A stretch of DNA of 64,000 bases from assembly GCF_023073335.1 (NCBI RefSeq), contig NZ_JADPJG010000002.1:94159-158158 (forward strand), given 5' to 3'. Under the pieces are notes generated by a model. That model worked only from the letters and a program-made list of their open reading frames with translations. It had not been told where the DNA came from and searched no databases. The DNA comes from Bradyrhizobium sp. 21. Lineage in GTDB: Bacteria; Pseudomonadota; Alphaproteobacteria; Rhizobiales; Xanthobacteraceae. The position numbers and the translations under genes were made by a program. The first letter of the stretch is position 1, and each line of letters opens with the position of its first letter. Positions 33,889 through 52,325 of this stretch are shown here, in pieces.

Positions 33889-34013
33889 CCCCTCTCCCGC
33901 CTGCGGGAGAGGGTCGGGGAGAGGGGTATCACCGCAATGGGATACTTCCCCCGAGGAAAGAACCCTCACCCGCGTCGCTTCGCTCCGCGACCTCTCCCGC
34001 AAGCGGGAGAGGT
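33889..34013. repeat. Double-hairpin repeat (CCTCTCCCGC family), copy 1
   Basis: Two hairpins with the same arms, CCTCTCCCGC-CT-GCGGGAGAGG at 33891-33912 and CCTCTCCCGC-AA-GCGGGAGAGG at 33991-34012, with ACCCTCACC between. A second copy is at 44935-45051. Inside the TRAP operon it may stop or slow part of the transcripts after the binding protein, or protect that message. Confidence 0.85.
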
Positions 34014-38209: not shown

Positions 38210-39127
38210 TCAGTTCGCATTGAGAACGGCGGCGACTTCCGCCGCCGTCGGCATCGACGGCCCCGCGCCCATGCGCTGCACGGAGATCGAGGCGGCGGCG
38301 TTGGCGAAGGCGAGGGCGGCGCGCAACGCTCCGCCTTCGGCCAATTGCGCCGCGAGCGCGCCCACAAAACAATCGCCCGCGCCTGTAGTGTCGACCGCCT
38401 GCACCGCGCGGCCGGGCACCGAAATCTCCTCGCGTCCGGCGAGCGCCAGCACGCCGCGCTTGCCGAGTGTGACGCAGATGGTCTGGTCCTCGCGCGCCTG
38501 AAGTTTTCGCGCCACGTCGATGATCCGCGCAGCTTCGTCACTCTCAGACAACTCCGCGCCGGCGAGGAAGCCGAGCTCGGTCTCGTTCAGCACGAGGATG
38601 TCGACGAATGCGAGCAACTCGCCGGACATGTTTTGCGCCGGCGCCGGGTTGAGCAGCGTGGTCGCGCCAGCCTCACGCGCTCGCGCAAAGAATGCTGCAA
38701 TCGTCGGCAACGGGATCTCGAACTGGCTGACCGCGACATCGCCCTTTGCCAGCGCAATTTCCGCGACATCGTCGGCGCTGACCAGCGCATTGCTGCCGGG
38801 AATGACGACGATGGTGTTGTCGGCCTCCGCCACCGTGATGATGGCGGTGCCGGTATGCGCCTCGGTCATTTGCACGACGTGGCCGAGGTCAATGCCCTGC
38901 GCGCCGAGAAAGGCCTTCAGCTCGGCGCCGAAGGAATCTGTCCCCAGCCGCCCGATCAGCGTGGTGCTCGCGCCAAGACGTGATGCCGCGACCGCCTGGT
39001 TCGCGCCTTTGCCGCCGGGAAAATACAGTACCTGCCGGCCGGCCACGGTCTCGCCGACCTTGGGGTGGCGATCGGCCGTCGCCACCACATCCATGTTGAT
39101 GCTGCCGGCGACGAAGACGCGCCCCAT
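38210..39127 (-). CDS. Ribokinase (PfkB family)
   Basis: A 305-residue PfkB sugar kinase with ribokinase-type motifs: GSINMDVVA at residues 8-16, FPGGKGANQAVAASRLGA (about 36-53), NPAPAQN and the catalytic DTTGAGDCFVGALAAQLAEG near 245-264, where Asp is the base and GAGD forms the anion hole. It phosphorylates ribose or a related sugar with ATP. It ends one base after the convergent reductase stop and begins 18 bp after the second PfkB gene on the same strand, so the two kinases share a transcript. Start ATG 39127. Confidence 0.9.
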   Translation of the reverse strand: MGRVFVAGSINMDVVATADRHPKVGETVAGRQVLYFPGGKGANQAVAASRLGASTTLIGRLGTDSFGAELKAFLGAQGIDLGHVVQMTEAHTGTAIITVAEADNTIVVIPGSNALVSADDVAEIALAKGDVAVSQFEIPLPTIAAFFARAREAGATTLLNPAPAQNMSGELLAFVDILVLNETELGFLAGAELSESDEAARIIDVARKLQAREDQTICVTLGKRGVLALAGREEISVPGRAVQAVDTTGAGDCFVGALAAQLAEGGALRAALAFANAAASISVQRMGAGPSMPTAAEVAAVLNAN

Positions 39128-39145
39128 CGGAAACCCCAGCGAAGC

Positions 39146-40039
39146 CTACACCTTGACCTCGAACTCGTGCCTGACCTTGGCGATGTCGACGAGGGTCGGC
39201 AGGCCGGCCTCGTTGCCGAGGCGCTGGATCTTGAAAGTCGAGGCAGCGCGGGCAAAATCGAAGTGCTCGCGCCAGCTTTTGCCGGGATGGGCGAGGTAGG
39301 AATAGACATAGGCGCCGTGGAAGACGTCGCCGGCACCGTTGGTGTCGATCACGCGCTCGCGCGGGATCGGCATCGCCGGCATTGTCTCGACCGTACCTGT
39401 TTCATTGTACCAAAGCAGGCCCTTCTCGCCCATGGTGATGCCGCCGATCTTGCAGCCGCGGCTCTTGAGATAGTCGAGCATCTTCTCCGGCGTCAGGTCC
39501 ATCTGCTCGCACAGGCGCTCGGCAACGATGGCGACGTCGATGAATTCGAGCAGCTCATGGGTATTGGTGCGCAGGCCACCGCCGTCGAGCGAGGTCAAAA
39601 TGCCGGCCTCGCGGCACACCTTGGCATAGTGGATCGCGGCATCCGGCTGATGGCCGTCGATGTGCAGCACCCGGCAGCCGCCGAGGTTGAGCATCGGGAA
39701 CGGATGGATGTGCTCGTCGTCGCGGCAGCGGACGATGGCGCGCTTGCCGTCCTTGGGCATGATGAAGGAGAGCGAGGACTGGTTCACCTTCCGCCCGTGC
39801 AGGGAGATCGCGTATTTCGCGCACATGTCCTGGAACATGCGCCCCAGCCAGTCATTGGCCGCCGTGGCGATCAGGTCGGGCACGATGCCGAGCTTGGCGC
39901 AACAAAACGCCGCCGTCACCGCATTGCCGCCGAAGGAAACCGCGTAGTCGGAGGCCACGTGCTTCTCGTCGCCGGTTGGCATGTGGTCGGTAATGAAGAC
40001 GACGTCGATATAGGTCTGTCCGATAAAGAGAGCCTGCAT
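39146..40039 (-). CDS. PfkB family carbohydrate kinase
   Basis: A 297-residue sugar kinase distinct from its neighbour. It has FIGQTYIDVVFITD at the N-terminus, SFGGNAVTAAFCCAKLG near 40, SLDGGGLRTN in the middle and the catalytic DTNGAGDVFHGAYVYSYL near 240-257. Sequence resembles KdgK/sulfofructose-kinase-like members without settling the substrate. Given the probable sugar-acid dehydratase and TRAP uptake in the region, phosphorylation of a 2-keto-3-deoxy acid is one reasonable role. Start ATG 40039 is preferred over 40126, which would add a basic, non-conserved 29 residues. First gene of a two-kinase unit. Confidence 0.88.
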   Translation of the reverse strand: MQALFIGQTYIDVVFITDHMPTGDEKHVASDYAVSFGGNAVTAAFCCAKLGIVPDLIATAANDWLGRMFQDMCAKYAISLHGRKVNQSSLSFIMPKDGKRAIVRCRDDEHIHPFPMLNLGGCRVLHIDGHQPDAAIHYAKVCREAGILTSLDGGGLRTNTHELLEFIDVAIVAERLCEQMDLTPEKMLDYLKSRGCKIGGITMGEKGLLWYNETGTVETMPAMPIPRERVIDTNGAGDVFHGAYVYSYLAHPGKSWREHFDFARAASTFKIQRLGNEAGLPTLVDIAKVRHEFEVKV

Positions 40040-40249
40040 TGCTTGTCCGTGATGCGCTTTGTGGTCCCGGCCGGCGCGCTTACTGTAGCACCGGTTCCGG
40101 TGAGAGGCCGCTGAAATTATTCGCAAAACTGCCGTCCGAAGCGCTTGAGGTCGGCATGGTGCCGGAATACGACCATGACAGCGTCATGCCAAGCCCGGGC
40201 AAATGCCGTGTTTCGGCCCATGGTTCCGGGCCGATCAAAGGGGGGGAAT

Positions 40250-41098
40250 ATGATCACCGGCCTCGATCACGTCGTCGCTCTGGTCAGGGATATCGGTGCG
40301 GCCAAGGCGGCTTATCAGACCCTATTGGGGCGCGCGCCGGCCTGGCAGAATTCGGGCGAGGGTGCCGACCGGGTGCTGTTCACCCTCCAGAACATGACGA
40401 TCGAGTTGATGGCGCCGAACGGCTTCAGCGTGACCGCCGACCGGATGCGCGCGCTGCTCGACGACCAGGAGGGCGTGCTTGCCAGCATGTGCTTTCGTGT
40501 CGCCGACATGGGCAAGATGCACCGGCGGCTGGAGCGGGTGGCGCTCAAGCCGGATGGTGTCGCCGAGGTCGAGAGCTGCGACGCGGAGAGCGGCGCGGTG
40601 CTGCATTGGAAGCGCACGCGTGCCGCCACGGAGCTCACGCGCGGCGTGCGCCTGTTCTTCCTCGAACTGGCTGACGAGCGTCCGCTCTCGCCGGCGACCG
40701 AGATCGCGCCGATCGACGCGCTCGACCACGTCGTCATCACCACCGAGGACTCAGAGCGCGCCGCCGCGCTCTACGGCGCGCGGCTCGGGCTCGATCTGGC
40801 GCTGGATCGTTCGCACCAGGATTGGGGCCAGCTGATGTTCTTCCGCTGCGGCGATCTCGTCGTCGAATTGGTGCGCCGTCCCGTCGCGGGCGGCGACTCC
40901 CTGCATGACCGTCTCTGGGGCCTGAGCTGGCGGGTGTCCGATATCGACGCCACGCGCGCCCGCCTGATCGCCGCCGGCCTCGACGTCACCGAAGTGCGCA
41001 ACGGCCGCAAGCCGGGCACGCGGGTGATGACGGTCAGGACCGGCACCTGCGGCATCCAGACGGTGCTGCTGGAGCGCTCGCCGAAGCCGGTGGATTGA
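40250..41098 (+). CDS. VOC (glyoxalase/dioxygenase fold) protein, two-domain
   Basis: A 282-residue protein with two VOC modules: residues 1-130 begin with ITGLDHVVALVRDI and residues 155-282 begin with IDALDHVVITTEDSERAAALYG. Metal ligands are suggested by His in each LDHV and Glu in TIELMAPN and VVELVRRP. VOC proteins include glyoxalases, extradiol dioxygenases and resistance proteins; the substrate is unknown. Start ATG 40250 is fixed by GGGGGG just upstream, and the frame before it has no domain. The TetR gene starts about 36 bp downstream on the same strand, suggesting joint transcription. Confidence 0.85.
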   Translation: MITGLDHVVALVRDIGAAKAAYQTLLGRAPAWQNSGEGADRVLFTLQNMTIELMAPNGFSVTADRMRALLDDQEGVLASMCFRVADMGKMHRRLERVALKPDGVAEVESCDAESGAVLHWKRTRAATELTRGVRLFFLELADERPLSPATEIAPIDALDHVVITTEDSERAAALYGARLGLDLALDRSHQDWGQLMFFRCGDLVVELVRRPVAGGDSLHDRLWGLSWRVSDIDATRARLIAAGLDVTEVRNGRKPGTRVMTVRTGTCGIQTVLLERSPKPVD

Positions 41099-41134
41099 CG
41101 AACTATGCGGCGCGCCGCGTGCATGATAAACGCG

Positions 41135-41872
41135 ATGTCGACGGTCACCCAGCGAGCAACCGGTTTGGCAAAGGCAAAGCGAACTCTGAAATGGCAGCGC
41201 GACCCTGAAGGCATGCGGCTGCGCATTCTCGAAGCGGCCAAGCAGGAGTTTTCCGCCCACGGGCTTGCCGGCGCGCGCGTCGACCGCATTGCGGTCAAGG
41301 CCGGCGCCAACAAGCGCATGCTCTACTATCACGTCGGCAACAAGGACGAACTCTATCTGGCGGTGCTCGAAGGCGCCTATGACAAGATCCGCAGCGAGGA
41401 GCGCGGGCTCGACCTCGAACATCTCGACCCACCCGAGGCCATCAGGCGCCTGATCGAGTTCACCTGGAATTATTTCCTGCGCAACCCGGAATTCCTGTCG
41501 CTGCTCCAGACCGAGAACCTCGCGCGCGCAAAGCACCTGAAGCGGTCGACCAAGGTCAAGTCGATGCACTCGCCCTTCGTCGAGATGATCCGCACCGTGG
41601 TGCGGCGCGGCGTCGACAGCGGCGACTTCCAGGTCGCGGTCGATCCGGTGCAGCTATACATCTCGATCGCCGGGCTTTGCTTCTTTTATCTCTCGAACTC
41701 GGCGACGCTCAGCGTGATCTTCGGCCGCGACCTGCTGGACAAGAAAGCCAAGGACGAGCGGCTGGACCACATGGTCGGCCTGGTGCTTGCAGCGCTTACG
41801 GGGCAGTCGGCCGCGCTGTTAGCCATGACGAAGGCGCCGAGGTCGCGCGCCGCGGTGGCGCAGACGGTTTAG
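41135..41872 (+). CDS. TetR/AcrR family transcriptional regulator
   Basis: A 245-residue regulator. The DNA-binding helix-turn-helix covers about residues 28-75: MRLRILEAAKQEFSAHG, ARVDRIAVKAGANKRMLYYHVGNKDELYLAVL. The C-terminal part is helical and RutR-like (FTWNYFLRNPEFLSLLQTEN). Start ATG 41135 is preferred, but in-frame ATGs at 41105 and 41123 are possible and none has a clear ribosome-binding site. It lies before the ABC importer cluster, separated by a palindromic repeat, and may control either the VOC gene or the importer operon. RutR-like regulators often sense pyrimidines, which would agree with a THI5-type importer; this is inference. Confidence 0.88.
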   Translation: MSTVTQRATGLAKAKRTLKWQRDPEGMRLRILEAAKQEFSAHGLAGARVDRIAVKAGANKRMLYYHVGNKDELYLAVLEGAYDKIRSEERGLDLEHLDPPEAIRRLIEFTWNYFLRNPEFLSLLQTENLARAKHLKRSTKVKSMHSPFVEMIRTVVRRGVDSGDFQVAVDPVQLYISIAGLCFFYLSNSATLSVIFGRDLLDKKAKDERLDHMVGLVLAALTGQSAALLAMTKAPRSRAAVAQTV

Positions 41873-41920
41873 TGCTGCTGCCGCTTCGTCTCGTTGTTTG
41901 AGGCGATCTGCGTCCTCAAC

Positions 41921-42047
41921 GTCGTCCTGGCGAACGCCAGGACCCATACCGCGTGATCCATCGATCGCGCGTGGTGCCAATCCCGAACGACCAGCCTTCG
42001 CCAAACTTCACCCTGTGGCTATGGGTCCTGGCGTTCGCCAGGACGAC
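41921..42047. repeat. Intergenic palindromic repeat (GTCGTCCTGGCG family), copy 2
   Basis: The 28-bp arms at 41921-41948 and 42020-42047 are exact inverses. The sequence matches copy 1 at 13945-14068 apart from the small loop (GAAC in place of GAAA) and the spacer. It fills half the 308-bp gap between the TetR and ABC permease genes; the remaining 130 bp must hold the importer promoter, in which I recognise no motif. Confidence 0.85.
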
Positions 42048-42180
42048 ACCGGGGATTTGGCACGGTCTTCAAATCCCAGCCCGAAACCCCCGGCGCAAAA
42101 CGTCACAGGAAAACCTCTGGACAGTATTTATCCAATCGGTTAATTTCTCCCGCAAGGAACAAGACGACCGGGAGTGAGGC

Positions 42181-42990
42181 GTGGCTGAGCTAAAGCCGCA
42201 GAGTGCGGTGTCCAAGATGCTGAACGCGGCCTGGATTCGGCCGTTCCTGTTCCTGGTCTTCATCGTCGTGGCCTGGGATCTTGCGATCCGGCTGTTCAGG
42301 ATTCCCGCCTACCAGATCCCGTCGCCCCTCGACGTCGTCGCGGTGCTGCGCACGGAATGGCCGGAGCTGCTGCGCCAGTCCTGGCCGACCACCTACGCGA
42401 CCGTCTGCGGCTTCCTGCTCTCGGCGCTGTTCGGCATTCCCGTCGCGATGCTGATCGCGGGCTCAAAGACGGTGGAGAGCTACGTCTATCCGCTGCTGGT
42501 GTTTTCCCAATCCGTGCCGAAGATCGCGATCGCGCCACTGTTCGTCGTGTGGTTCGGCTTCGGCATTATTCCAAAGGTGATCTCGGCGTTCCTGCTCGGC
42601 TTTTTCCCCGTCGTGGTCTCGGCCGTGCAGGGCTTCAAATCGGTCGACCCCGACATGGTCGACCTCGCCCGCGCCATGCAGGGCAGCCGCTTCCAGGTAT
42701 TTTGTGCGGTGAACCTGCCCCATGCGCTGCCGGCGATCTTCTCCGGTCTCAAGGTCTCGGTGACGCTCGCCGTGGTCGGCGCCGTCGTCGGCGAGTTCGT
42801 CGGCTCCAATTCCGGCATCGGCTATGTGATGCAGCGCTCGATCGGAACCTTCGACCTGCCGACGATGTTCGCAGCCCTCGTGATCTTGGCGCTGCTCGGC
42901 GTGATCCTGTTCTGGATCGTTGACCGTATCGAGAAGCTGATCATTCCCTGGCATGTCAGCCAGCGCGAGGACGTGATTTTCGCCTCTTGA
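42181..42990 (+). CDS. ABC transporter permease (nitrate/sulfonate/taurine/pyrimidine type)
   Basis: A 269-residue inner-membrane permease with six transmembrane segments. The BPD-type coupling loop is DLARAMQGSRFQVFCAVNLPHALPAIFSGL near residues 160-190 read in segments; VVGEFVGSNSGIGYVM follows. This matches SsuC/TauC/ThiX permeases. Start is GTG 42181, supported by GGGAGTGAGGC directly upstream. It heads a run of seven genes on one strand with short gaps or overlaps: permease, binding protein, ATPase, enolase-type enzyme, dehydrogenase, DUF993 protein and TIM-barrel protein. Confidence 0.92.
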   Translation: MAELKPQSAVSKMLNAAWIRPFLFLVFIVVAWDLAIRLFRIPAYQIPSPLDVVAVLRTEWPELLRQSWPTTYATVCGFLLSALFGIPVAMLIAGSKTVESYVYPLLVFSQSVPKIAIAPLFVVWFGFGIIPKVISAFLLGFFPVVVSAVQGFKSVDPDMVDLARAMQGSRFQVFCAVNLPHALPAIFSGLKVSVTLAVVGAVVGEFVGSNSGIGYVMQRSIGTFDLPTMFAALVILALLGVILFWIVDRIEKLIIPWHVSQREDVIFAS

Positions 42991-43052
42991 ACAACACTAA
43001 AGAAACGAACGGCCATCAACGGCCGACGCAACAACGACAAGGGAGAGTGACG

Positions 43053-44045
43053 ATGAAGCGGTGGATAGGAGCTGTCTCTGCGGCGCTGATGGTATTTGCG
43101 GCGATGCCGGCGCAGGCGGCCGACAAGGTCGTGCTGATGCTCAATTGGTACGTCTATGGCGAGCATGCGCCGTTCTATTACGGCAAGGCCAAGGGCATCT
43201 ATGCGGCCGAGGGTATCGACCTCGAAATCCAGGAAGGCCGCGGCTCGGCGGCGACCACGCAGGCTGTTGCCGCAAAGACCGCCGATTTTGGCTATGTCGA
43301 CGTCCCCACCATGATGCGCGCCGCGATCAAGGGCGCGCCTGTGGTCGCGACCGGCGTGCTGCTCCAGACCAGCCCGATGTCCGCCATGGGTTTCGTCGAC
43401 AAGAACATCAGGAAGCCCGAGGACATCAAGGGCAAGACGGTGGCGATCACGCCGGCCGATTCCATGACCCAGATCTGGCCGCTGTTCCTGAAGAAGACCG
43501 GCCTGAAGGAGAGCGACTTCACCACCGTTGCCGGCGATGGTCAGACCAAGCTCAACGCCGTCATCAATGGCCAGGCTGACCTGCTGCTCGGCTACGTCAT
43601 GGACCAGTCGATGAAGATCAAGGACGCCACCGGCAAGGACGTCTATCCGATCAAGTTCGCCGACTACGGCATCAACATGGTCTCCTCGGGCATCATCGCC
43701 AATGCTGACTATGTGAAAACCAATGCCGATCTGGTCCGCCGCTTCATGTCGGCGACAACGAAGGCGGTCGAAGCAGCCGAGAAGGAGCCGAAGGCGGCGG
43801 CACAATCGATCCTCGATGCCAATCCCAAAGGCGGCAAGATCGACACCCTGACGCAGGGCTTTGAGCTGACCATTCCGCTCTACCGAACCGCGGAGACCAA
43901 GAGCAAGCGGCCGTTCCAGGTGACCGACCAGAATATGACGGATTCCGTCAACCTGATGGTCGAATATGGCGGGCTCGATGCCAAGGCCAAGGAGAACCCG
44001 AAGGTCTTCTACACCAACGATTACCTCCCGAAGAGCGGCTCGTGA
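43053..44045 (+). CDS. ABC transporter substrate-binding protein (NMT1/THI5-like)
   Basis: A 330-residue periplasmic protein. Signal peptide MKRWIGAVSAALMVFAAMPAQA is cleaved near residue 22. The NMT1/THI5 pattern is clear: VLMLNWYVYGEHAPFYYGKAKGIYAAEGIDLEI, GSAATTQAVAAKTADFGYVD and DIKGKTVAITPADS, each read in segments. Proteins of this type bind thiamine pyrimidines, sulfonates, nitrate or aromatic acids; WYVYGEHAPFYYGKAKG favours a pyrimidine or cyclic organic ligand over nitrate. Start ATG 43053 has AAGGGAGAG upstream. Its last codon overlaps the ATPase GTG start. Confidence 0.9.
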   Translation: MKRWIGAVSAALMVFAAMPAQAADKVVLMLNWYVYGEHAPFYYGKAKGIYAAEGIDLEIQEGRGSAATTQAVAAKTADFGYVDVPTMMRAAIKGAPVVATGVLLQTSPMSAMGFVDKNIRKPEDIKGKTVAITPADSMTQIWPLFLKKTGLKESDFTTVAGDGQTKLNAVINGQADLLLGYVMDQSMKIKDATGKDVYPIKFADYGINMVSSGIIANADYVKTNADLVRRFMSATTKAVEAAEKEPKAAAQSILDANPKGGKIDTLTQGFELTIPLYRTAETKSKRPFQVTDQNMTDSVNLMVEYGGLDAKAKENPKVFYTNDYLPKSGS

Positions 44046-44890
44046 AACAAGCCGCAGTATCGAGTGAAACCGGGCAGCCGGCCGCGCATCTGAGACTGGT
44101 GAGCGACCGGGCGGCCGGCGAGGCGTCAGGCATCAAATTGTCCGGCGTGTCCAAAACCTACCGGACACGCGACGGCGACGTGCCGTCGTTGCGGCCGCTC
44201 GATTTCCACATCAACGACGGCGAGTTCTTCGTCGTGGTCGGCCCGTCCGGTTGCGGCAAGTCCACGCTGCTCAAGCTGATCTCGGGATTGCTGCCGCCGA
44301 CATCAGGCGAGATCCTGGTCGAGGGCGAGAAGGTGACGAAGCCGCACGGCAATGTCGGCATCGTCTTCCAGAACGCGCTGTTGCTGCCCTGGCGCAACAT
44401 CCTGTCCAACGTCATGCTGCCGATCGACATGAAGCGGCTGCCGCGGCAAACATATCTCGACCGTGCCAAGGCGCTGTTGAAGCTGGTCGGGCTGGAGGGT
44501 TTCGAGAAGAAGCTGCCGTGGCAACTCTCCGGCGGCATGCAGCAGCGCGCCTCGATCTGCCGCGCGCTGGTGCACGATCCCAGGATCATGCTGATGGACG
44601 AGCCGTTCGGCGCGCTCGATGCGCTGACGCGGGAGCGCATGAATGTCGAGCTGATGCGGATCCAGCGCGAGACCAGGAAGACCGTGCTGCTGATCACGCA
44701 TTCGATCCCCGAGGCCGTGTTCCTCGCTGACCGTGTGCTGGTGATGACCGAACGGCCCGGCGCGATCGCCGCGATCTACGACGTGCCGCTGCCGCGCCCA
44801 CGCTCGCTCGATGTGATGGCCGACCCTGTCTTCACCGAGCTCGTGCAACGCATCCGCAAGCATTTCTTTTCGCAGGGTGCATTGGATTAG
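44042..44890 (+). CDS. ABC transporter ATP-binding protein (SsuB/TauB type)
   Basis: A 282-residue ATPase. Walker A is GPSGCGKSTLLK near residues 67-75, Q-loop is FQNALLLPWR, signature LSGGMQQRASICRAL, Walker B LMDEPFGALD, and H-loop LLITHSIPEAVFLADR. All are intact, so it is active. It energises the permease and binding protein upstream. Start GTG 44042 overlaps the preceding stop by four bases, showing translational coupling. A 30-residue N-terminal extension before the fold is slightly long for the family. The next gene follows after a palindromic repeat. Confidence 0.93.
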   Translation: MKQAAVSSETGQPAAHLRLVSDRAAGEASGIKLSGVSKTYRTRDGDVPSLRPLDFHINDGEFFVVVGPSGCGKSTLLKLISGLLPPTSGEILVEGEKVTKPHGNVGIVFQNALLLPWRNILSNVMLPIDMKRLPRQTYLDRAKALLKLVGLEGFEKKLPWQLSGGMQQRASICRALVHDPRIMLMDEPFGALDALTRERMNVELMRIQRETRKTVLLITHSIPEAVFLADRVLVMTERPGAIAAIYDVPLPRPRSLDVMADPVFTELVQRIRKHFFSQGALD

Positions 44891-44934
44891 GACGATGATG
44901 TGTCCTCCGACCGCAACCGCACGAACGGTGCGCT

Positions 44935-45051
44935 CCCTCCCCCGCCTGCGGGGGAGGGTTGGGGAGAGGGTATCTCCGCTCGCGAGAACCCCCCAGAGAA
45001 CAAAACCCTCACCCGGCACTTCGTGCCGACCTCTCCCGCAAGCGGGAGAGG
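44935..45051. repeat. Double-hairpin repeat (CCTCTCCCGC family), copy 2
   Basis: Hairpins CCCTCCCCCGC-CT-GCGGGGGAGGG (44935-44958) and CCTCTCCCGC-AA-GCGGGAGAGG (45030-45051), with ACCCTCACC between, as in copy 1. Placed between the importer ATPase and the enzyme genes, it may partly uncouple their expression. Confidence 0.85.
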
Positions 45052-45093
45052 TGCACCGCCGCCTGAGCCGCATCTCGGGAGCCAAGTAGCACC

Positions 45094-46491
45094 ATGTCAC
45101 CCCGCCTGAAGCTGCGAGACATCGCATTCTTCGAACGTCCCGTGCATTTCGCGCGGCCGTTCCGCTTCGGCGCGATCACCATCAACGCGACGCCGCAGCT
45201 GTTCGTGCGGGTCGAAATCGAGGTCGAAGGCAAGGGGACCGCGGTCGGTGCCAGCGCCGAGCTTCTGGTGCCGAAATGGTTCGACAAGCGACCGGAGCTA
45301 TCGCCGACGCAGACGGTCGATGGCTTGCGCCGATCGCTGCAGATTGCGCGCGGGCTTTATCTGGCGCGGACGGGATTCCTGACCGCGTTCGATCTGCATG
45401 CCTCGTGCATCGGTGCCCAGGTTGCGATGTGTGCGAAAAAGAACATTCCAGCGCTTGCTGCGGCTTATGGCCCCGCCGAGATCGACAAGGCGATCCTCGA
45501 TGCGCTGCTGCGCGCCGCCGAGACGAACTTCTTCGACGGCATGGCCGGCAACATTGCCGGCATCGATGCGCGGCTTTCGCCTGACCTGACGGAAGCGGAT
45601 CTTGCGACGTTTCTCGCCGATCGGAAACCGCTGCCGCGCGTGGCTATCAGGCATACCGTCGGTCTCGATGACACCGTGGAAGGTGAGGGCGGTGTTGCCG
45701 ATGCCCGTGAGAACTCCGGTGCAAGATACTTCAAGCTGAAGCTGTCGGGTGACCCCGTGGCCGATGCGACGCGGCTGGCGCGCATCGGCAAGGAGCTCGA
45801 TGCGCTGGATCGTGACACCAAGGTGACGCTCGATGCGAACGAACAATATGCCGATCTCGCAGCGCTGCAGGCGCTGATCGACCGGCTCAACCATGATCCC
45901 GCATTGCGACCGATCACGTCCCGGTTGCTTTATGTCGAGCAGCCGATGCCGCGCGACATCACGCGGCAGGCGCCGCTCGGCTCGCTTGCCGCGCGCGGCT
46001 TCATCATCGATGAAGCCGACGATTCCTATGACGCCTTCCCGGCGGCGCGCGCGCTCGGCTATCGCGGCATTTCCTCGAAATCCTGCAAGGGCCTGTACAA
46101 GTCCATCGTCAACGCGACGCGGGCGGCGAAATGGAGCGCAGGCGGCGAAAAGTTCTTCGTGACCGGCGAGGACCTGACCTGCCAGGCCGGCCTCGCCGTG
46201 CAGCAGGATCTCGCGCTCGGCGCGTTCATCGGCGTCACCCACGCCGAGCGCAACGGCCATCACTATGTCGACGGTTTTGGCGAGACGCCTGCCGCCGAAG
46301 CGCAGGCGTTCGCGGCCGCGCATCCCGATCTCTATGCCGATGCCGGGCGAGGCATCCGGCTTTCCATTCACAAAGGCGATCTCCTGACGGGATCGCTTCA
46401 CAGCAAGGGCTTTGCGACGTCGGTCCATCCGGACTGGTCGGCGCTCGCCCTGCTCGAACAGCCAAAATCACCTCAGGAGCAATTGGCATGA
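45094..46491 (+). CDS. Enolase-superfamily enzyme (mandelate racemase/muconate lactonizing-like)
   Basis: A 465-residue protein, about 80 residues longer than typical members. The barrel ligands can be followed: FKLKLSG (KxK base), VTLDANEQY (first metal Asp), LLYVEQPM (Glu), FIIDEADDSYD (third acid) and GISSKSCKGLYKS (opposite Lys), the arrangement of the muconate lactonizing subgroup. These enzymes abstract a proton next to a carboxylate for dehydration, racemisation or cycloisomerisation. The substrate is not known. Start ATG 45094 follows AGCCAAGTAGCACC with no strong ribosome-binding site. Its stop overlaps the next gene as ATGA. Confidence 0.83.
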   Translation: MSPRLKLRDIAFFERPVHFARPFRFGAITINATPQLFVRVEIEVEGKGTAVGASAELLVPKWFDKRPELSPTQTVDGLRRSLQIARGLYLARTGFLTAFDLHASCIGAQVAMCAKKNIPALAAAYGPAEIDKAILDALLRAAETNFFDGMAGNIAGIDARLSPDLTEADLATFLADRKPLPRVAIRHTVGLDDTVEGEGGVADARENSGARYFKLKLSGDPVADATRLARIGKELDALDRDTKVTLDANEQYADLAALQALIDRLNHDPALRPITSRLLYVEQPMPRDITRQAPLGSLAARGFIIDEADDSYDAFPAARALGYRGISSKSCKGLYKSIVNATRAAKWSAGGEKFFVTGEDLTCQAGLAVQQDLALGAFIGVTHAERNGHHYVDGFGETPAAEAQAFAAAHPDLYADAGRGIRLSIHKGDLLTGSLHSKGFATSVHPDWSALALLEQPKSPQEQLA

Positions 46492-47639
46492 CCACCCAAC
46501 GCCTCGGCCTCATCATGAACGGCGTCACCGGCCGCATGGGGCTCAACCAGCATCTGATCCGCTCGATCGTCGCGATCCGCGAGCAGGGCGGCGTCCTCTT
46601 GAAGAATGGCGACCGCGTGATGCCCGATCCGATCCTGGTCGGCCGCAGCGCCGAGAAGGTCGAGACGCTTGCCAGGCGCTACAACATCACGCGCTGGACC
46701 ACCGATCTCGACGCCGCGCTCGCCGACAAGAACGACACCATGTTCTTCGATGCCGCGACCACGCAGGCACGGCCGGGCCTTCTGACCCAGGCCATCAATG
46801 CAGGCAAGCACGTCTATTGCGAGAAGCCGATCGCGACGAACTTCGAGGCGGCGCTCGAGGTCGTCAAGCTCGCCAATGCCAAGGGCGTCAAGCACGGCAC
46901 GGTGCAGGACAAGCTGTTCCTGCCCGGCCTGAAGAAGATCGCCTTCCTGCGCGATTCCGGTTTCTTCGGCCGCATCCTCTCGGTGCGCGGCGAGTTCGGC
47001 TATTGGGTGTTCGAAGGCGGCTGGCAGGAAGCGCAGCGGCCGTCCTGGAACTACCGCGACGAGGACGGCGGCGGCATCATTTTGGACATGGTCTGCCACT
47101 GGCGCTACGTGCTCGACAACCTCTTCGGCGAGGTCGAGAGCGTGAGCTGCATCGGCAACACCGATATCCCCGAACGCTATGACGAGCAGGGCAAGAAGTA
47201 CAAGGCGACGGCCGACGACTCGGCTTATGCGACGTTCCAGCTCAAGGGCGGCGCCATCGCACATATCAACATGTCCTGGGTGACGCGCGTCTATCGCGAC
47301 GACCTTGTCACCTTCCAGGTCGACGGTACGCTCGGCTCGGCCGTCGCCGGCCTGTCGGACTGCATGATTCAGGCGCGGCAGGCGACGCCCCGGCCGGTGT
47401 GGAATCCCGATGAGAAGCGGCTGCATGATTTCTACGGCGACTGGCAGAAGCTGCCGGACAACGTCACCTACGACAACGGCTTCAAGGAACAGTGGGAGAT
47501 GTTCATCCGCCACGTCTACGAGGATGCGCCCTACAAGTTCACGCTGCTCGAAGGCGTCAAGGGCGTGCAGCTCGCCGAATGCGCGCTGAAGAGCTGGAAG
47601 GAGCGGCGCTGGATCGACGTCGCCCCGATCAAGGCCTGA
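46488..47639 (+). CDS. Gfo/Idh/MocA family oxidoreductase
   Basis: A 383-residue NAD(P)-dependent dehydrogenase. The Rossmann start is atypical, LGLIMNGVTGRMGLNQHL (residues 6-23), close to the GxxGRMG of dihydrodipicolinate reductases; KHVYCEKPIATNFEAAL (catalytic Lys of the EKP motif near 112) and the GGGIILDMVCHWRYVL region, with the family Asp-x-x-x-His, identify the Gfo/Idh/MocA family. It oxidises a sugar, inositol or a cyclic polyol at one hydroxyl. Start ATG 46488 overlaps the enolase-type stop. DUF993 begins 10 bp later. Substrate unknown. Confidence 0.9.
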   Translation: MTTQRLGLIMNGVTGRMGLNQHLIRSIVAIREQGGVLLKNGDRVMPDPILVGRSAEKVETLARRYNITRWTTDLDAALADKNDTMFFDAATTQARPGLLTQAINAGKHVYCEKPIATNFEAALEVVKLANAKGVKHGTVQDKLFLPGLKKIAFLRDSGFFGRILSVRGEFGYWVFEGGWQEAQRPSWNYRDEDGGGIILDMVCHWRYVLDNLFGEVESVSCIGNTDIPERYDEQGKKYKATADDSAYATFQLKGGAIAHINMSWVTRVYRDDLVTFQVDGTLGSAVAGLSDCMIQARQATPRPVWNPDEKRLHDFYGDWQKLPDNVTYDNGFKEQWEMFIRHVYEDAPYKFTLLEGVKGVQLAECALKSWKERRWIDVAPIKA

Positions 47640-47649
47640 GGAGGGACAC

Positions 47650-48855
47650 ATGAACAAGCCCGTCCTGCCCAAACCTGTTCCTTCAATGTCGTCGTTGTCG
47701 TTGAAATTGCCGAAAGCCGATCGCTCGATCGAGACCTACCGGCTTGCGGCCTCACGAACGTTCCCGGCAAAGCTTGAGGGGCCGCTGAACCGAATCGCCT
47801 TCTCGGCGGTGCATACCGTGGTCGATCCCTTCGCGGACAACGATCCCTGGCTTTCGGTTGCCGTTGACTGGGACAAGACCATCGCCTTCCGCGAGCACGT
47901 CTGGGACCTCGGGCTCGGCGTCGCCGAAGCCATGGACACCGCGCAGCGCGGCATGGGTTTGGACTGGCCGACCTCGCTGGAGCTGATCACGCGTTCGGTA
48001 TCAGCCGCCAAGCGCCGCAACGCGCTGGTGTTCTCCGGTGCCGGCACCGATCACCTCGCGGTCGAGGACGCCAAGAGCCTCGACGACGTGATCCGCGCCT
48101 ATGAGGAGCAGATCTCGGCTGTCGAGAAGGTCGGCGGCCGCATCATCTTGATGGCGTCGCGCGCGCTGGCGAAGCTGGGCCGCAATGCCGACGATTACGC
48201 AAAAGTCTATGACCGCGTGCTGTCGCAGGTTCGCGAGCCTGCCATCATCCACTGGCTCGGCGACATGTTCGATCCGGCGCTGACGGGCTATTGGGGCACC
48301 AACGATCTCGACAAGGCGATGGACACGGCCGTCACCGTCATCAACGGCAACGCGGCCAAGATCGACGGCGTCAAGGTCTCGCTGCTCGACAAGCAGCGCG
48401 AGATCGACATGCGCCGTCGTCTCGACAAGCGCATCAAGATGTATACCGGCGACGACTTCAATTATGCGGAGCTGATCGCCGGCGACAGCGAAGGCTTTTC
48501 GCACGCGCTGCTCGGCATTTTTGACGCGATCGCGCCGGCGGCGTCGTACGCCTTGTCGCGGCTGGCAGCGGGTGACGAAGCGGGCTTCCACGACGTGCTT
48601 GGGCCGACGGTGCCACTGTCGCGGCACATCTTCAAGGCGCCGACGCGGTTCTACAAGACCGGCGTGGTGTTCATGGCCTATCTCAACGGCCACCAGGATC
48701 ATTTCACCATGGTCGGCGGGCAGGAGAGCACGCGCTCGACGCTGCATCTGGCCGAGTTGTTCCGGTTGGCTGACAAGGCCGGGCTGCTTGCCGATCCGGA
48801 GCTGGCGACGCGGCGGATGAGGGCGGTGCTGTCAACGCACGGAATCGAATCCTGA
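47650..48855 (+). CDS. DUF993 / dihydrodipicolinate synthase-like aldolase family protein
   Basis: A 401-residue protein of the DUF993 group, which is built on the dihydrodipicolinate synthase TIM barrel. Visible stretches include AFSAVHTVVDPFADNDPW near the N-terminus, FSGAGTDHLA, AIIHWLGDMFDPALTGYWG and KIDGVKVSLLDK, where the Lys in VKVSLLD occupies the position expected of a Schiff-base lysine. It is longer than DapA (about 290). It may cleave or form a carbon-carbon bond in a keto-sugar breakdown route; no activity is established to my knowledge. Start ATG 47650 follows GAGGAGGGACAC. Its stop overlaps the next start by one base. Confidence 0.85.
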   Translation: MNKPVLPKPVPSMSSLSLKLPKADRSIETYRLAASRTFPAKLEGPLNRIAFSAVHTVVDPFADNDPWLSVAVDWDKTIAFREHVWDLGLGVAEAMDTAQRGMGLDWPTSLELITRSVSAAKRRNALVFSGAGTDHLAVEDAKSLDDVIRAYEEQISAVEKVGGRIILMASRALAKLGRNADDYAKVYDRVLSQVREPAIIHWLGDMFDPALTGYWGTNDLDKAMDTAVTVINGNAAKIDGVKVSLLDKQREIDMRRRLDKRIKMYTGDDFNYAELIAGDSEGFSHALLGIFDAIAPAASYALSRLAAGDEAGFHDVLGPTVPLSRHIFKAPTRFYKTGVVFMAYLNGHQDHFTMVGGQESTRSTLHLAELFRLADKAGLLADPELATRRMRAVLSTHGIES

Positions 48856-49718
48856 TGCGCGATTTTTCCTCCGACCACCGCTGGCTGTCGCTCAACACGG
48901 CGACAGTTCGCAAGCAGGGTGATTTGGTCGAGATCATTGATGCTTGCGCCAGGCATGGCATCCGCGCCATCGATCCCTGGCGCGACCAGGTCGCGGCCGT
49001 CGGGCTGGAACGTGCCGCGCGCGCGGTGCGCGATGCCGGTCTCGAGCTGTCGGGCTATTGCCGTGGTGGCATGTTCACCTCGGATGCGTCGCGCCGGGGC
49101 GAGGTGCGTGACGACAACCGCCGCTGCGTCGATGAAGCCAAGGCGCTGGGCGCGCCCTGCATCGTTCTCGTCGTCGGCGGCCTGCCGCAATATTCGCGAC
49201 CGGGCAGCGAGGCGTCCAAGGACATCGTTGCCGCGCGCGGGCAAGTCGAGGAAGCTCTCGCCGAGATGCTCGACTACGCCAGACAGGCAAAGCTGCCGCT
49301 CGCGATCGAACCGCTGCATCCGGCCTATGCGGCCGACCGGGCCTGCGTGAACACTACAAAGCAGGCGCTCGACATCTGCGACCGGCTCGATCCCAGCCGT
49401 ACCGGCCTGCTCGGCGTCGCGCTCGACGTCTATCACATCTGGTGGGACCCCGAGTTGCTGGGGCAGATCGCGCGCGCCGCCCGAGACCGCCTGCTCGCCT
49501 TCCATGTCTGCGACTGGCTGGTGCCGACAAAAGACATCCTCAACGACCGCGGCATGATGGGTGACGGCGTGATCGACATCAAATCGGTGCGCGAAGCGGT
49601 CGAAGCGCAGGGCTTTGCCGGCTATTCGGAGATCGAAATCTTCTCCAACGAGTGGTGGAGCAAACCCATCGACGAGGTGCTGCAAACCTGCATCACGCGG
49701 CACAAGACGGCGGTTTAG
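48855..49718 (+). CDS. Sugar phosphate isomerase/epimerase family protein (AP2Ec TIM barrel)
   Basis: A 287-residue xylose-isomerase-like TIM barrel. Metal-binding positions are suggested by the Glu in LAIEPLHPAY, Asp in GVALDVYHIWWD with its His, His in LLAFHVCDWL and the final Glu in YSEIEIFSNEWW. Family members isomerise or epimerise sugars or keto-sugars, or cleave 3-keto-glycosides. Last gene of the importer-enzyme operon; start ATG 48855 overlaps the DUF993 stop (TGATG), indicating coupled translation. The 137 bp after it, before the convergent P450 gene, shows no clear terminator. Confidence 0.9.
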   Translation: MRDFSSDHRWLSLNTATVRKQGDLVEIIDACARHGIRAIDPWRDQVAAVGLERAARAVRDAGLELSGYCRGGMFTSDASRRGEVRDDNRRCVDEAKALGAPCIVLVVGGLPQYSRPGSEASKDIVAARGQVEEALAEMLDYARQAKLPLAIEPLHPAYAADRACVNTTKQALDICDRLDPSRTGLLGVALDVYHIWWDPELLGQIARAARDRLLAFHVCDWLVPTKDILNDRGMMGDGVIDIKSVREAVEAQGFAGYSEIEIFSNEWWSKPIDEVLQTCITRHKTAV

Positions 49719-49855
49719 GCCTTTTCGGAATTGTTGCGCGCAACGGCGCCGATGGCCTGAGATGTCAAATGGTTGCGCGGGATCACCGGCGCATCGCGCG
49801 GCGGTGACCTTCTACTGTGCATGGGGTTGTTTTCGCGTTTTTATGTTTGAGGCCC

Positions 49856-51076
49856 TCAGCCGATCGTGCAGGGCACGCTCAAAAAGCCGCGGAACCGTAC
49901 CCGTCCGCCCCGCACCGGCTTTCCGCTCACGGTGTAGTTCGGGAAGCGCGCCAGAAAGCGCGAGACCGCGATGGCGCCTTCCAGCCGCGCCAGCGCCATG
50001 CCGGCGCATTGATGCGCGCCGGTGGCGAAGGCGAGATGCCGGTTCGGCGTGCGCGCGATGTCGAAGCGCTCGGCGTCCGGAAACTGCGCCGGATCGCGGT
50101 TGGCCGCACCGATGCACAGCGTGATCGATGTGCCGGCATCGAGCATGACGCCGCCGAGTTCGACCCGCTCCGTGGTCATGCGGTTGCCGAGTTGGTTCGA
50201 ACTCTCGTAGCGCAGCATCTCTTCGACGGCGGTCTTGATCATGTCGGGATTGTCGATCAGCCGCCGCTTCTGGTCCGGATTCCGGTCGAGCGCCACGAGG
50301 CCGTTGCCGATCAGGTTGGTGGTGGTCTCGTGGCCGGCATTGAGCAGGAAGATGCAGTTGTGCAGCAGCTCCTTCTCGGTCAGCCGCTCGCCGTTCTCCT
50401 CGCCCTGTATGAGACGCGTCAGCACGTTGCGCTCGGGATTGCCCGGCCTCTCGCGACGGCGTGCGACCAGCGTTGCGAGATAGGTGAGAAAATCCGTAAC
50501 TGCCTTGTTGCCGCGCGCGGCCACGTCAGGCGGCACCACGGGTTCGAGTGCGCCGAGGATCGCCAGCGACCAGTCGCGCAGCGGCTCACGTTCATCGTGG
50601 GGCACGTCGAGCAGATTGCCGATCACCTCGATGGGGATCGACGCTGCAAAGTCGTCGATCAGTTCGCAAGCGCCCTTGGCGGCGATGGCGTCGAGCAGGC
50701 CGTCGACCAGCTTGACGATATCAGGCTCCATCCCGGCGATCGCGCGCGGCGACAGCGCGCCCATGATCAGGCGCCGCACACGCGTATGCGCCGGCGGATC
50801 GTTGAAGACGAGGCTCGTGGTGTGGTGCTCGTAGAGCGGGGTGTCGCCGTATTTCGGCGCGAACTCGCGCTTCTTGTCCGAGCTGAACGATTTTGTGTTC
50901 TTGTAGGTCGTGACGAGATCGTCATAGCGGGTCAGGAACACGGTGCCGTTGCGCAGGCGCTTGACCGGCTCGTTCTCCCGCAGTGCACGATAGGTCGGAT
51001 AGGGATCGTCGTAGAATTCCGCCGTCAGCTTCTCCAGATCGAACTTGGCCGCCAGTTCTTTCGCATCTGCGTTCAT
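49856..51076 (-). CDS. Cytochrome P450
   Basis: A 406-residue soluble bacterial P450. The haem-binding loop is FATGAHQCAGMALARLEG with the ligand Cys near residue 355; the I-helix oxygen-activation motif is NAGHETT (near 244-250); ExxR is EEMLRYES; and FNDPPAHTRVRRLI is the C-helix region. It hydroxylates an unknown compound and needs a redox partner; a possible reductase lies at 36989-38209. Start ATG 51076 is chosen over GTG 51139, giving the standard length. It is divergent from the split thiamine-diphosphate decarboxylase, 107 bp away, which suggests a common pathway or regulator. Confidence 0.93.
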   Translation of the reverse strand: MNADAKELAAKFDLEKLTAEFYDDPYPTYRALRENEPVKRLRNGTVFLTRYDDLVTTYKNTKSFSSDKKREFAPKYGDTPLYEHHTTSLVFNDPPAHTRVRRLIMGALSPRAIAGMEPDIVKLVDGLLDAIAAKGACELIDDFAASIPIEVIGNLLDVPHDEREPLRDWSLAILGALEPVVPPDVAARGNKAVTDFLTYLATLVARRRERPGNPERNVLTRLIQGEENGERLTEKELLHNCIFLLNAGHETTTNLIGNGLVALDRNPDQKRRLIDNPDMIKTAVEEMLRYESSNQLGNRMTTERVELGGVMLDAGTSITLCIGAANRDPAQFPDAERFDIARTPNRHLAFATGAHQCAGMALARLEGAIAVSRFLARFPNYTVSGKPVRGGRVRFRGFLSVPCTIG

Positions 51077-51183: not shown

Positions 51184-51738
51184 ATGCACGCCCGCGCTGA
51201 CGCTGCCGACACGGCCACCGAATCTGGCACTCGTTGGCCCGACGATATTTTCGCGACCTTGCAACGCTTCGACGTTCGCCAAGTGCCTTACGTGCCCGAT
51301 GCCGGCCATGCGACGCTGATCCAGCGCGTGCTGGAGTCGCCGACGATGCGCGGCATTCCGCTGACGACGGAGGAGGAGGGTGTGGCGCTTCTCGCCGGCG
51401 CCTGGGCCGGCGGCCAGCGCGGTGTCTTGCTGATGCAGTCGAGCGGTGTCGGCAATTGCATCAACATGCTCTCGCTGATCCCGATCCTGCGCTTTCCGTT
51501 CCTCACGCTCGTGACCATGCGCGGCGAGTGGGGCGAGTTCAATCCATGGCAGGTGCCGATGGGATCGACCACGCAGGGCGTGTTCGAACTCTCGGGCGTC
51601 AAGGTGCTGCGGGCCTCGAACGCAGCCGACGTGCCGGCCGTGTTGGAGGCCGCCGCCGCCCAGGCCTACAACGCGCTCACCCCGACCGCTGTCCTGTTGT
51701 CGCAGCGCCTGATCGGCGCCAAGGTCTTCACCAAATGA
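51184..51738 (+). CDS. Thiamine-diphosphate decarboxylase alpha subunit (sulfo-/phosphonopyruvate decarboxylase type)
   Basis: A 184-residue PYR-domain protein. It has TTEEEGVALLAGAWAGGQRG, with the conserved Glu that activates the thiamine ring, followed by MQSSGVGNCINML and LVTMRGEWGEFNPWQ. Size and motifs match the alpha chain of ComDE sulfopyruvate decarboxylase and the N-terminal half of phosphonopyruvate decarboxylase. It needs the beta subunit encoded immediately downstream, whose start overlaps its stop (ATGA). Start ATG 51184 follows ACAGGAAA. Family members release CO2 from a 2-oxo acid bearing a sulfonate or phosphonate; here the substrate is unknown. Confidence 0.88.
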   Translation: MHARADAADTATESGTRWPDDIFATLQRFDVRQVPYVPDAGHATLIQRVLESPTMRGIPLTTEEEGVALLAGAWAGGQRGVLLMQSSGVGNCINMLSLIPILRFPFLTLVTMRGEWGEFNPWQVPMGSTTQGVFELSGVKVLRASNAADVPAVLEAAAAQAYNALTPTAVLLSQRLIGAKVFTK

Positions 51739-52325
51739 GCAAGGCCAATCTTCTCGACCGCCGTCAGGTGGTGTCCACGCTGCTCGCGGACCGCAAGGAC
51801 GTCGTTGCCATCGGCGGCCTCGGCGCCTCCACCAACGACATCTGTGCGGCCGGCGACCATGCCCGCAATTTCTATCTCTGGGGCGGCATGGGCGGCGCTG
51901 CGATGATCGGGCTCGGGCTCGCGCTGGCGCAGCCGAGGCTGCCGGTGCTGGTCATCACCGGCGACGGCGAGATGCTGATGGGGATGGGCAGCCTCGCCAC
52001 AATCGGCCTGCAAAAGCCGTCCAACCTCTCGATCGCGGTGCTCGACAATGAGGCCTATGGCGAGACCGGCGGCCAGACCAGCCACACCTCCGCCGCCGTC
52101 GACCTCGTCGGCGTTGCCGGGGCCTGCGGCATCAAGGACAGCCGGGCTGTCACGACCATGGCCGAGGTCGAGGCCTTTGCGAAGGCGGTCCATGACGTCG
52201 CCACCGGGCCGCGCTTCGCCAATATCAAGATCGACAGCGCCAACGTTGAACGCATTCTGCCCACCCGGGACGGGACCTACATCGTCAACCGGATGCGCGG
52301 CGATCTCGGCTTCCAGCCAATCTGA
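51735..52325 (+). CDS. Thiamine-diphosphate decarboxylase beta subunit
   Basis: A 196-residue PP-domain protein with the thiamine-diphosphate/magnesium motif GDGEMLMGMGSLATIG ending in VLDNEAYGETGGQTSHT near residues 76-112. WGGMGGAAMIGLGLALA precedes it. It completes the active site with the alpha subunit upstream. Together the two equal the length of one phosphonopyruvate or sulfopyruvate decarboxylase. No phosphonate mutase or coenzyme M genes lie nearby, so the usual assignments may not hold. Start ATG 51735 overlaps the alpha stop. Confidence 0.88.
   Translation: MSKANLLDRRQVVSTLLADRKDVVAIGGLGASTNDICAAGDHARNFYLWGGMGGAAMIGLGLALAQPRLPVLVITGDGEMLMGMGSLATIGLQKPSNLSIAVLDNEAYGETGGQTSHTSAAVDLVGVAGACGIKDSRAVTTMAEVEAFAKAVHDVATGPRFANIKIDSANVERILPTRDGTYIVNRMRGDLGFQPI

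Follow-up and report, generated by a model that had tools for sequence, protein, structure and literature searches.

The window considered here is a stretch of 64,000 nucleotides from Bradyrhizobium sp. 21 (contig NZ_JADPJG010000002.1, positions 94,159 to 158,158), in which seven same-strand genes at 42181..49718 (+), in window coordinates, encode an ABC transporter and four enzymes, one of them a member of the DUF993 family (Table 1). It is tentatively proposed, as a reading that falls a good deal short of probable, that these genes form a TetR-controlled operon for the import of a small sugar-acid-like compound and its breakdown by oxidation, ring opening and aldol-type cleavage to glycerate. 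A broader proposal is a serious possibility, if still short of an even one: that the DUF993 proteins make up a Schiff-base lyase class of a new kind, in which His replaces the Tyr of dihydrodipicolinate synthase (DHDPS) and the carboxylate is bound by a new motif, and that they are central to a widespread sugar-acid pathway, so far undescribed, leading to glycerate and near-universal in Bradyrhizobium, with interchangeable transporters and dehydrogenases, an outsized lactone-opening enolase and one conserved TetR regulon. New here is a palindromic predicted operator that recurs upstream of the genes of this module, also where the enolase, transporter or Gfo genes stand apart.

A recurrent core of three genes

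Gene neighbourhoods were compared in 113 loci. Of these, 80 come from public genomes and are the best 80 of at least 593, those nearest to the window's DUF993; 13 are plasmid loci, hand-picked for diversity among 60 of 147 records; and 20 more were taken from 20 of the 26 DUF993-positive genomes outside the genus. The public loci are divided into the Bradyrhizobium/Tardiphaga group of 26 (L002-L024, L027, L028 and L034: Bradyrhizobium, Tardiphaga, close metagenome-assembled genomes and one record labelled Frankia) and 54 others. Presence thresholds were set by the analyst. L113 and L119 are apparently the same locus from two strains, L128 is nearly a copy of L129, and five loci are shorter than 9 kb, so that absences partly reflect contig ends.

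In the Bradyrhizobium/Tardiphaga group, Gfo and TIM are present in all 26 loci, the enolase and TetR in 25, and the transporter genes in 24 each. Among the 54 other public loci, Gfo is present in 50, TIM in 48, TetR in 36 and the enolase in 29, with THI5-type transporter genes in 15-16 and TctC in 11. The actinobacterial plasmids L112 and L122 have Gfo-DUF993-TIM, and the plasmid locus L111 has Gfo-DUF993. Gfo/Idh, DUF993 and the TIM-barrel protein are a recurrent core in the Alpha- and Betaproteobacteria and on two actinobacterial plasmids; the enolase-type gene and the transporter are additions to it that can be exchanged. The gene set is kept together beyond chance; co-divergence of the genes gives r of 0.56-0.89, uncorrected for shared ancestry and calculated from rows kept above set identity and length limits.

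The family itself is large, with at least 8000 database members, all candidates scored having matched. Of 146 genomes sampled from the genus, 138 have DUF993. In a draw of 398 genomes across the phylum it occurs in 36, of which 10 belong to the genus, and none of 14 control genomes has it. Among soil and nodule bacteria, where this genus is a dominant group, it is thus close to core metabolism, and the substrate is therefore probably a common plant or soil compound.

Not all DUF993 loci have a Gfo gene. On a tree of 88 DUF993 proteins the label 'Gfo neighbour' needs 6 changes against a shuffled mean of 19.6; the label is clustered, yet the Gfo-less rows are not one clade. Most Gfo-less loci carry a short-chain dehydrogenase/reductase (SDR), GMC oxidoreductase, CoA-transferase, enoyl-CoA hydratase or aldehyde dehydrogenase; none of these partners was found among the families searched in L135 and L136, and short contigs account for some of the Gfo-less rows (L042, L057). 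The DUF993 family probably serves more than one pathway. In the plasmid loci L121 and L113, DUF993 lies beside genes for acyl-CoA dehydrogenase, electron-transfer flavoprotein, CoA-transferase, enoyl-CoA hydratase and SDR, a context that suggests a CoA-linked variant pathway.

The transporter is not constant

In the 54 loci the THI5-type permease is present in 15 and the tripartite permease TctA in 14 others, with both in none. By annotation, other transporter types are also found nearby, namely sugar ABC (L115, L120), TRAP (L116) and tripartite (L123), and in L063 there is a urea/branched-chain type under the cut-offs. It is the enzymes that stay constant, not the transporter. The replacement of the ABC type by TctA/TctC tripartite carboxylate-type transporters is counted in favour of a sugar-acid substrate.

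A pyrimidine- or nucleoside-like substrate is not supported, as the THI5-type transporter is no constant partner and the extra enzyme in fused versions of the locus is keto-sugar-epimerase-like. More generally, it is very improbable that the operon serves uptake and degradation of a pyrimidine, a thiamine precursor or a sulfonate: the transporter does have NMT1/THI5 and SsuA-type matches and the best match of TetR is RutR at 59 bits, but that match is far under the 368-bit cut-off, the transporter is swapped for unrelated types around the same enzymes, and pyrimidine or sulfonate enzymes are absent from the operon's profile matches. Another part of the initial annotation, that the genes are one catabolic unit, gains support from the conserved neighbourhoods and from the recurring predicted operator.

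Table 1. Features of the operon and its 5' region (window coordinates)
Feature	Position	Strand	Matches and remarks
TetR-family regulator (TetR_C_29), start codon uncertain	41105..41872	+	PF17938 144 bits, PF00440
Predicted TetR operator TTATCCAATCGGTTAA	42128..42143	+	11/12 match to TTAACC-N4-GGTTAA; ends 37 bp before permease start
ABC transporter permease, taurine/nitrate-type family, GTG start	42181..42990	+	PF00528
NMT1/THI5-type binding protein	43053..44045	+	PF09084 156 bits; nearest solved 4nmy, then THI5 4h6d
ABC transporter ATPase, GTG start	44042..44890	+	PF00005
REP-type (repetitive extragenic palindromic) palindrome pair in ATPase-enolase gap, probable insertion	44936..45051	.	
Enolase-superfamily enzyme, muconate-lactonizing (MLE) type, 465 aa	45094..46491	+	
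Gfo/Idh/MocA dehydrogenase	46488..47639	+	PF22725, PF02894, PF01408
DUF993 protein, DHDPS fold, predicted class-I (Schiff-base) lyase	47650..48855	+	PF06187 627 bits
AP_endonuc_2 TIM-barrel sugar isomerase/epimerase-like protein	48855..49718	+	PF01261 132 bits

A predicted operator shared by the module genes

The TetR gene at 41105-41872 and the palindrome before the permease gene were not part of the initial annotation. The regions upstream of the permease genes of relatives diverge except for one block, TTTATCCAACGGGTTAA, which has few changes in the Bradyrhizobium group, and in Azospirillum there are clean palindromes such as TTAACCAGCCGGTTAA upstream of the permease. A survey was made with the consensus TTAACC-N4-GGTTAA at 10 or more of 12 positions, with only plus-strand genes counted for upstream placement. 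Of the 38 sites in the 87 loci outside the Bradyrhizobium/Tardiphaga group, 28 (in 24 loci) are followed by a module gene match within 170 bp; none of 25 shuffled half-sites gave more than 3 such sites. In the 26 loci of the group the corresponding figure is 24 of 27 sites.

Sites also accompany module genes that stand apart. In L075 a site is between the enolase and divergent transporter genes; in L037, L039 and L051 it is before TctC (the tricarboxylate receptor), where that gene stands apart; in L036, L050 and L052 it precedes a separate Gfo gene; and in L062 it precedes a second DHDPS-like gene. L125 has sites before the permease, before an ATPase-Gfo run, and between TetR and the binding protein. 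We infer that the TetR protein binds at 42128-42143, and the module genes are probably under shared regulation. Separate regulation of the enzyme genes, which had been named as a finding that would refute the initial reading, is not what the survey suggests.

Single matches to the consensus are to be read with care. In the window's genome only two sites have one mismatch or none, 42128-42143 and one inside an open reading frame, and with up to two mismatches there are 38 sites against 103 for a reversed control pattern. Across 115 sequences, 67 operator-like sites were found where mono-nucleotide shuffles lead one to expect 22.7. Weak or lone sites are no evidence, since shuffles and the reversed control also yield many. 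The predicted operator and the interchangeable partners, taken together, provide a direct route towards the substrate.

DUF993 as a probable Schiff-base enzyme

The DUF993 protein has the (beta/alpha)8 fold of the DHDPS/NAL family, to which KdgD belongs. Its relative 4dnh (SMc04132, 64% identity) is deposited as a hypothetical protein, and the PDB has included a structure for the family since 2012. In an alignment with the DapA protein of the same genome, lysine K242 falls on the DapA lysine (hhalign E 1.3e-4, but probability 53%), at the sixth-strand Schiff-base position, and it is invariant in 88 of 88 DUF993 rows, two partial rows (L119, L142) having been left out of the alignment. In DHDPS the Tyr of the YNxP motif is catalytic and a GTTGE-type motif binds the carboxylate of the keto acid. 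In DUF993 the position of this Tyr is taken by H201, likewise invariant in 88 of 88, and the GTTGE-type motif is lost, the aligned stretch being MDTAQRG. There is no match to the PF00701 profile, only PF06187 being matched at E up to 0.001. DUF993 is a probable Schiff-base enzyme, on the evidence of the DHDPS fold and the invariant K242.

The type of reaction is a separate matter. Instead of an aldolase, DUF993 might be a dehydratase, hydratase or decarboxylase that works through a Schiff base, with the carbon chain kept at that step. Dehydratases and hydratase-aldolases also have the DHDPS fold, the Foldseek matches include 7c0c (keto-deoxyarabonate dehydratase) and 6daq (PhdJ), and the replacement of Tyr by His would fit, but the glycerate kinase genes of some DUF993 loci argue for a C3 product, and this alternative is considered unlikely.

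That DUF993 has no established activity, as was stated initially, agrees with the openly licensed literature in PubMed Central (PMC), in which no full text on its function was found; a subscription paper could exist. For PF06187, 4DNH, 3OQB, SMc04130-04132 and SMc04133-04140, that literature gave only table rows in PMC12542648, which do not describe the operon; for 3QC0, 3JU2, 7VPF, 4NMY and the family names, there is no operon description among the matches listed. Nor was a published pathway with the same gene set found among them. This is a widespread family with a structure in the PDB, yet no paper on it was found in that literature.

The enolase-type enzyme

The enolase-type protein has the capping domain and the barrel, and had been described as about 80 residues longer than normal and as having muconate-lactonizing ligands. 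Both statements hold. Its length of 465 aa compares with 338-388 residues in the 50 structural matches listed. The MLE subgroup is characterised by three metal ligands, a KxK on the second strand and a K on the sixth, and the set is complete here: metal ligands D247, E282 and D306, with K214/K216 and K329, are invariant in alignments of 33 and of 57 rows and sit at strand ends of the predicted model. The only profile match is to PF13378 (MR_MLE_C), at 20.6 bits and under the 29.4-bit cut-off; a sequence-only search for a solved relative gives nothing good (E 0.38 for an MLE), and a profile search reaches dipeptide epimerases and MLE. Abstraction of a proton by this enzyme, the role originally proposed, is supported by its predicted active-site residues.

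The Gfo/Idh and TIM-barrel proteins

The solved relative of the Gfo protein, 3oqb, from Bradyrhizobium japonicum, is matched with 859 bits over residues 1-382 and is deposited as an oxidoreductase. The Rossmann and C-terminal domains are present, and E112-K113-P114, D200 and H204 are kept in 90 of 90 rows. The TIM protein has solved relatives 3ju2 (SMc04130, deposited as an uncharacterized protein), 3qc0 and 7vpf. Its E-D-H-E metal site is conserved, with E152, D191 and E261 in 89 of 89 rows and H217 in 87 of 89. Named NCBIfam profiles match both proteins only far under their cut-offs.

Among the best named relatives of Gfo are inositol 2-dehydrogenase and levoglucosan dehydrogenase, and the TIM protein weakly matches IolO and IolI, which would be in keeping with a cyclitol or 3-keto-glycoside-type pathway in which Gfo makes a ring ketone, the TIM protein acts like IolE/IolI and DUF993 opens the ring. 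Such a pathway is rather improbable, as the named matches are so far under their curated cut-offs, the annotated neighbours (a subset) include no inositol-pathway enzyme beyond the weak IolG-like Gfo and IolO-like TIM, and the thiamine-pyrophosphate enzyme beside four loci is of the acetolactate-synthase type. The gene for this last enzyme is divergent and adjoins the TetR gene, at L044:3257-4960 and in three more loci.

A possible pathway to glycerate

In the proposed pathway the THI5-type ABC transporter would import the compound and Gfo/Idh would oxidise one carbinol to give a lactone or keto acid. The MLE-type enolase would then take the proton next to the carboxylate, with beta-elimination opening the lactone or anhydro ring to a 2-keto-3-deoxy acid, a step modelled on galactarolactone cycloisomerase (Gci) and anhydrogalactonate cycloisomerase. 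DUF993 would form a Schiff base through K242 and split the keto acid into pyruvate and a C3 aldehyde, as has been proposed for GudL. The metal-dependent TIM-barrel protein may act as an epimerase or isomerase on a pathway intermediate or on the C3 product (tartronate semialdehyde and hydroxypyruvate, for instance), and the C3 acid would enter metabolism as glycerate. This is an order that we infer, and the sequence of oxidation, ring opening, class-I cleavage and glycerate is favoured because of the Gci, anhydrogalactonate and GudL precedents.

Four known routes can be compared with this scheme. The oxidative hexuronate route of Agrobacterium uses Udh, Gli, Gci and KdgD (PMC6353982), and is similar in that a dehydrogenase and an enolase-superfamily cycloisomerase are followed by a DHDPS-family enzyme acting on a keto-deoxy acid. 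It differs in that the dehydrogenase here is Gfo/Idh and DUF993 is not PF00701; the enolase type here is also about 80-130 residues longer than the structural matches listed for it. In the case of gud/gar, the DapA-like GudL needs K167, and tartronate semialdehyde and then glycerate are the proposed products (PMC11775122). The DapA-like protein with its essential lysine, and a proposed C3 product that leads to glycerate and glycerate kinase, are the points of likeness, whereas DUF993 is without the DHDPS Tyr and GTTGE and glycerate kinase is linked to it in some lineages only. The operon's profile searches gave no match to a GudD/GarD-type dehydratase or a GarR-type reductase.

The 3,6-anhydro-L-galactose route also has oxidation followed by ring opening by an enolase-superfamily enzyme, AHGA cycloisomerase, to 2-keto-3-deoxygalactonate (PMC9706016), but its oxidation is of the aldehyde-dehydrogenase type and its substrate is an agar sugar. 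Deoxyribonate oxidation leads to beta-keto acid cleavage and involves glycerate kinase (PMC6365646), and so shares sugar-acid oxidation, carbon-carbon cleavage and glycerate kinase with the scheme; its cleavage enzyme is a different one, and it is closer to the DUF993 loci with SDR and CoA-transferase than to this operon.

The evidence for a C3 product comes from other lineages. A glycerate-kinase match is near DUF993 in 8 of the 13 plasmid loci and 3 of the 20 further loci. Complete glycerate kinase genes are beside Gfo-DUF993-TIM in L112, L115 and L116, and the match is partial or in pieces in L111, L119 and L122, which is 3 of the 12 loci with a match among the 113. A tartronate-semialdehyde-reductase-like gene is present in 4 of 113 loci. 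The glycerate-kinase linkage points to a C3 acid product in some lineages, and its application to the window is an extrapolation. In a search limited to the MOFRL type of glycerate kinase, the window's genome has one, located elsewhere. In L116 there are transhydrogenase subunit genes (L116:10925-13952) within the Gfo-DUF993-TIM-glycerate kinase cluster, hinting that the pathway touches the NADP(H) balance.

L112, L115 and L116 can be read in another way, since they show that Gfo-DUF993-TIM exists with glycerate kinase and without an enolase gene. Gfo might make a 5-keto-hexonate or similar compound, the TIM protein epimerise it and DUF993 carry out a retro-aldol cleavage to tartronate semialdehyde and dihydroxyacetone, with the enolase only epimerising a stereoisomer into the pathway. 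An additional ketose-3-epimerase/IolO-like protein in 14 of 54 relatives would agree with this, as would a dihydroxyacetone kinase gene 6 kb from DUF993 in L114. The kinase, however, is found in 1 of 113 loci only, with an insertion element between it and DUF993 in a locus without Gfo of this kind; dihydroxyacetone was rejected as a product because a single dhaK in 113 loci is too weak. This route is accordingly judged unlikely, if worth keeping in mind.

Four observations weigh against the proposed breakdown by oxidation, ring opening and cleavage to glycerate. The glycerate kinase is rare near DUF993 in the public genomes, being found in none of the 26 Bradyrhizobium/Tardiphaga-group loci and in 1 of the 54 others (L046). 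The enolase is missing from 25 of those 54, some of them cut by contig ends, so DUF993 works there without it; no scheme that makes DUF993 dependent on the enolase product can hold for all loci, and since DUF993 and Gfo occur without the enolase, the latter is an accessory step and not the last of a fixed chain. DUF993 is without the Tyr and GTTGE that DHDPS enzymes use with pyruvate-type acids, and because of this a 2-keto-3-deoxy acid may not be its substrate. Lastly, the many Gfo-less DUF993 loci with SDR, GMC, CoA-transferase or aldehyde dehydrogenase are not explained by the scheme.

A second operon in the same genome

An unlinked second operon is present in the same genome at C25:40148-46475 (L159:9149-15476), with genes for TetR, a THI5-type permease, an extended SDR, a GNAT protein, a second DHDPS-like protein and an ATPase, and a divergent NMT1 binding protein. 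TCAACC-N4-GGTTGA is about 70 bp 5' of its permease gene. The C25-type DHDPS-like gene lies within a locus of the window type in L047, L054, L062, L073, L077, L078 and L125; five of these seven loci also have the C25-type extended SDR, and five have a ketose-3-epimerase-like TIM protein, which is found in 14 of the 54 overall. The two operons probably serve linked pathways. Profile comparison of DUF993 with the second DHDPS-like family gave no significant match (probability 0.9%).

A PhyH-type Fe/2-oxoglutarate dioxygenase recurs near the module, in L054 (3357-4112), L066, L074 and L125; it might serve to take a methyl or other group off the substrate.

Gene layout and flanking genes

The seven genes are all there, and their Pfam profile matches agree with the families given in the initial annotation. 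The overlaps of ATGA or TGATG type described between them hold for three of the six junctions, SBP-ATPase (SBP being the binding protein) and enolase-Gfo (4 bp each) and DUF993-TIM (1 bp), and not for the other three, where there are gaps of 62 bp (permease-SBP), 203 bp (ATPase-enolase) and 10 bp (Gfo-DUF993). No promoter-like site was found by a sigma-70 scan of 40900-50000.

The 203-bp gap contains two palindrome copies. The ATPase-enolase gap could be measured in 32 relatives: it does not exceed 30 bp in 21 of them and is 31-400 bp in the other 11, with a REP-type repeat in 5 of these 11. Because the gaps of relatives are mostly this short, and the longer ones partly contain REP, the gap looks like an insertion into a single transcription unit. 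The same palindrome is present twice near 33.9 kb, so that it forms two pairs in the window, 33891-34012 and 44936-45051, with 4 matches against 0.01 expected.

Three flanking candidates were rejected as parts of the operon. The upstream kinases (38210-40072) are on the opposite strand, and they and a downstream P450 are either at varying distances or without a match outside the Bradyrhizobium group; the third is a glyoxalase. Further 3', at 51184-52325, there are adjoining genes like those for the alpha and beta subunits of sulfopyruvate/phosphonopyruvate decarboxylase, with all matches under the curated cut-offs.

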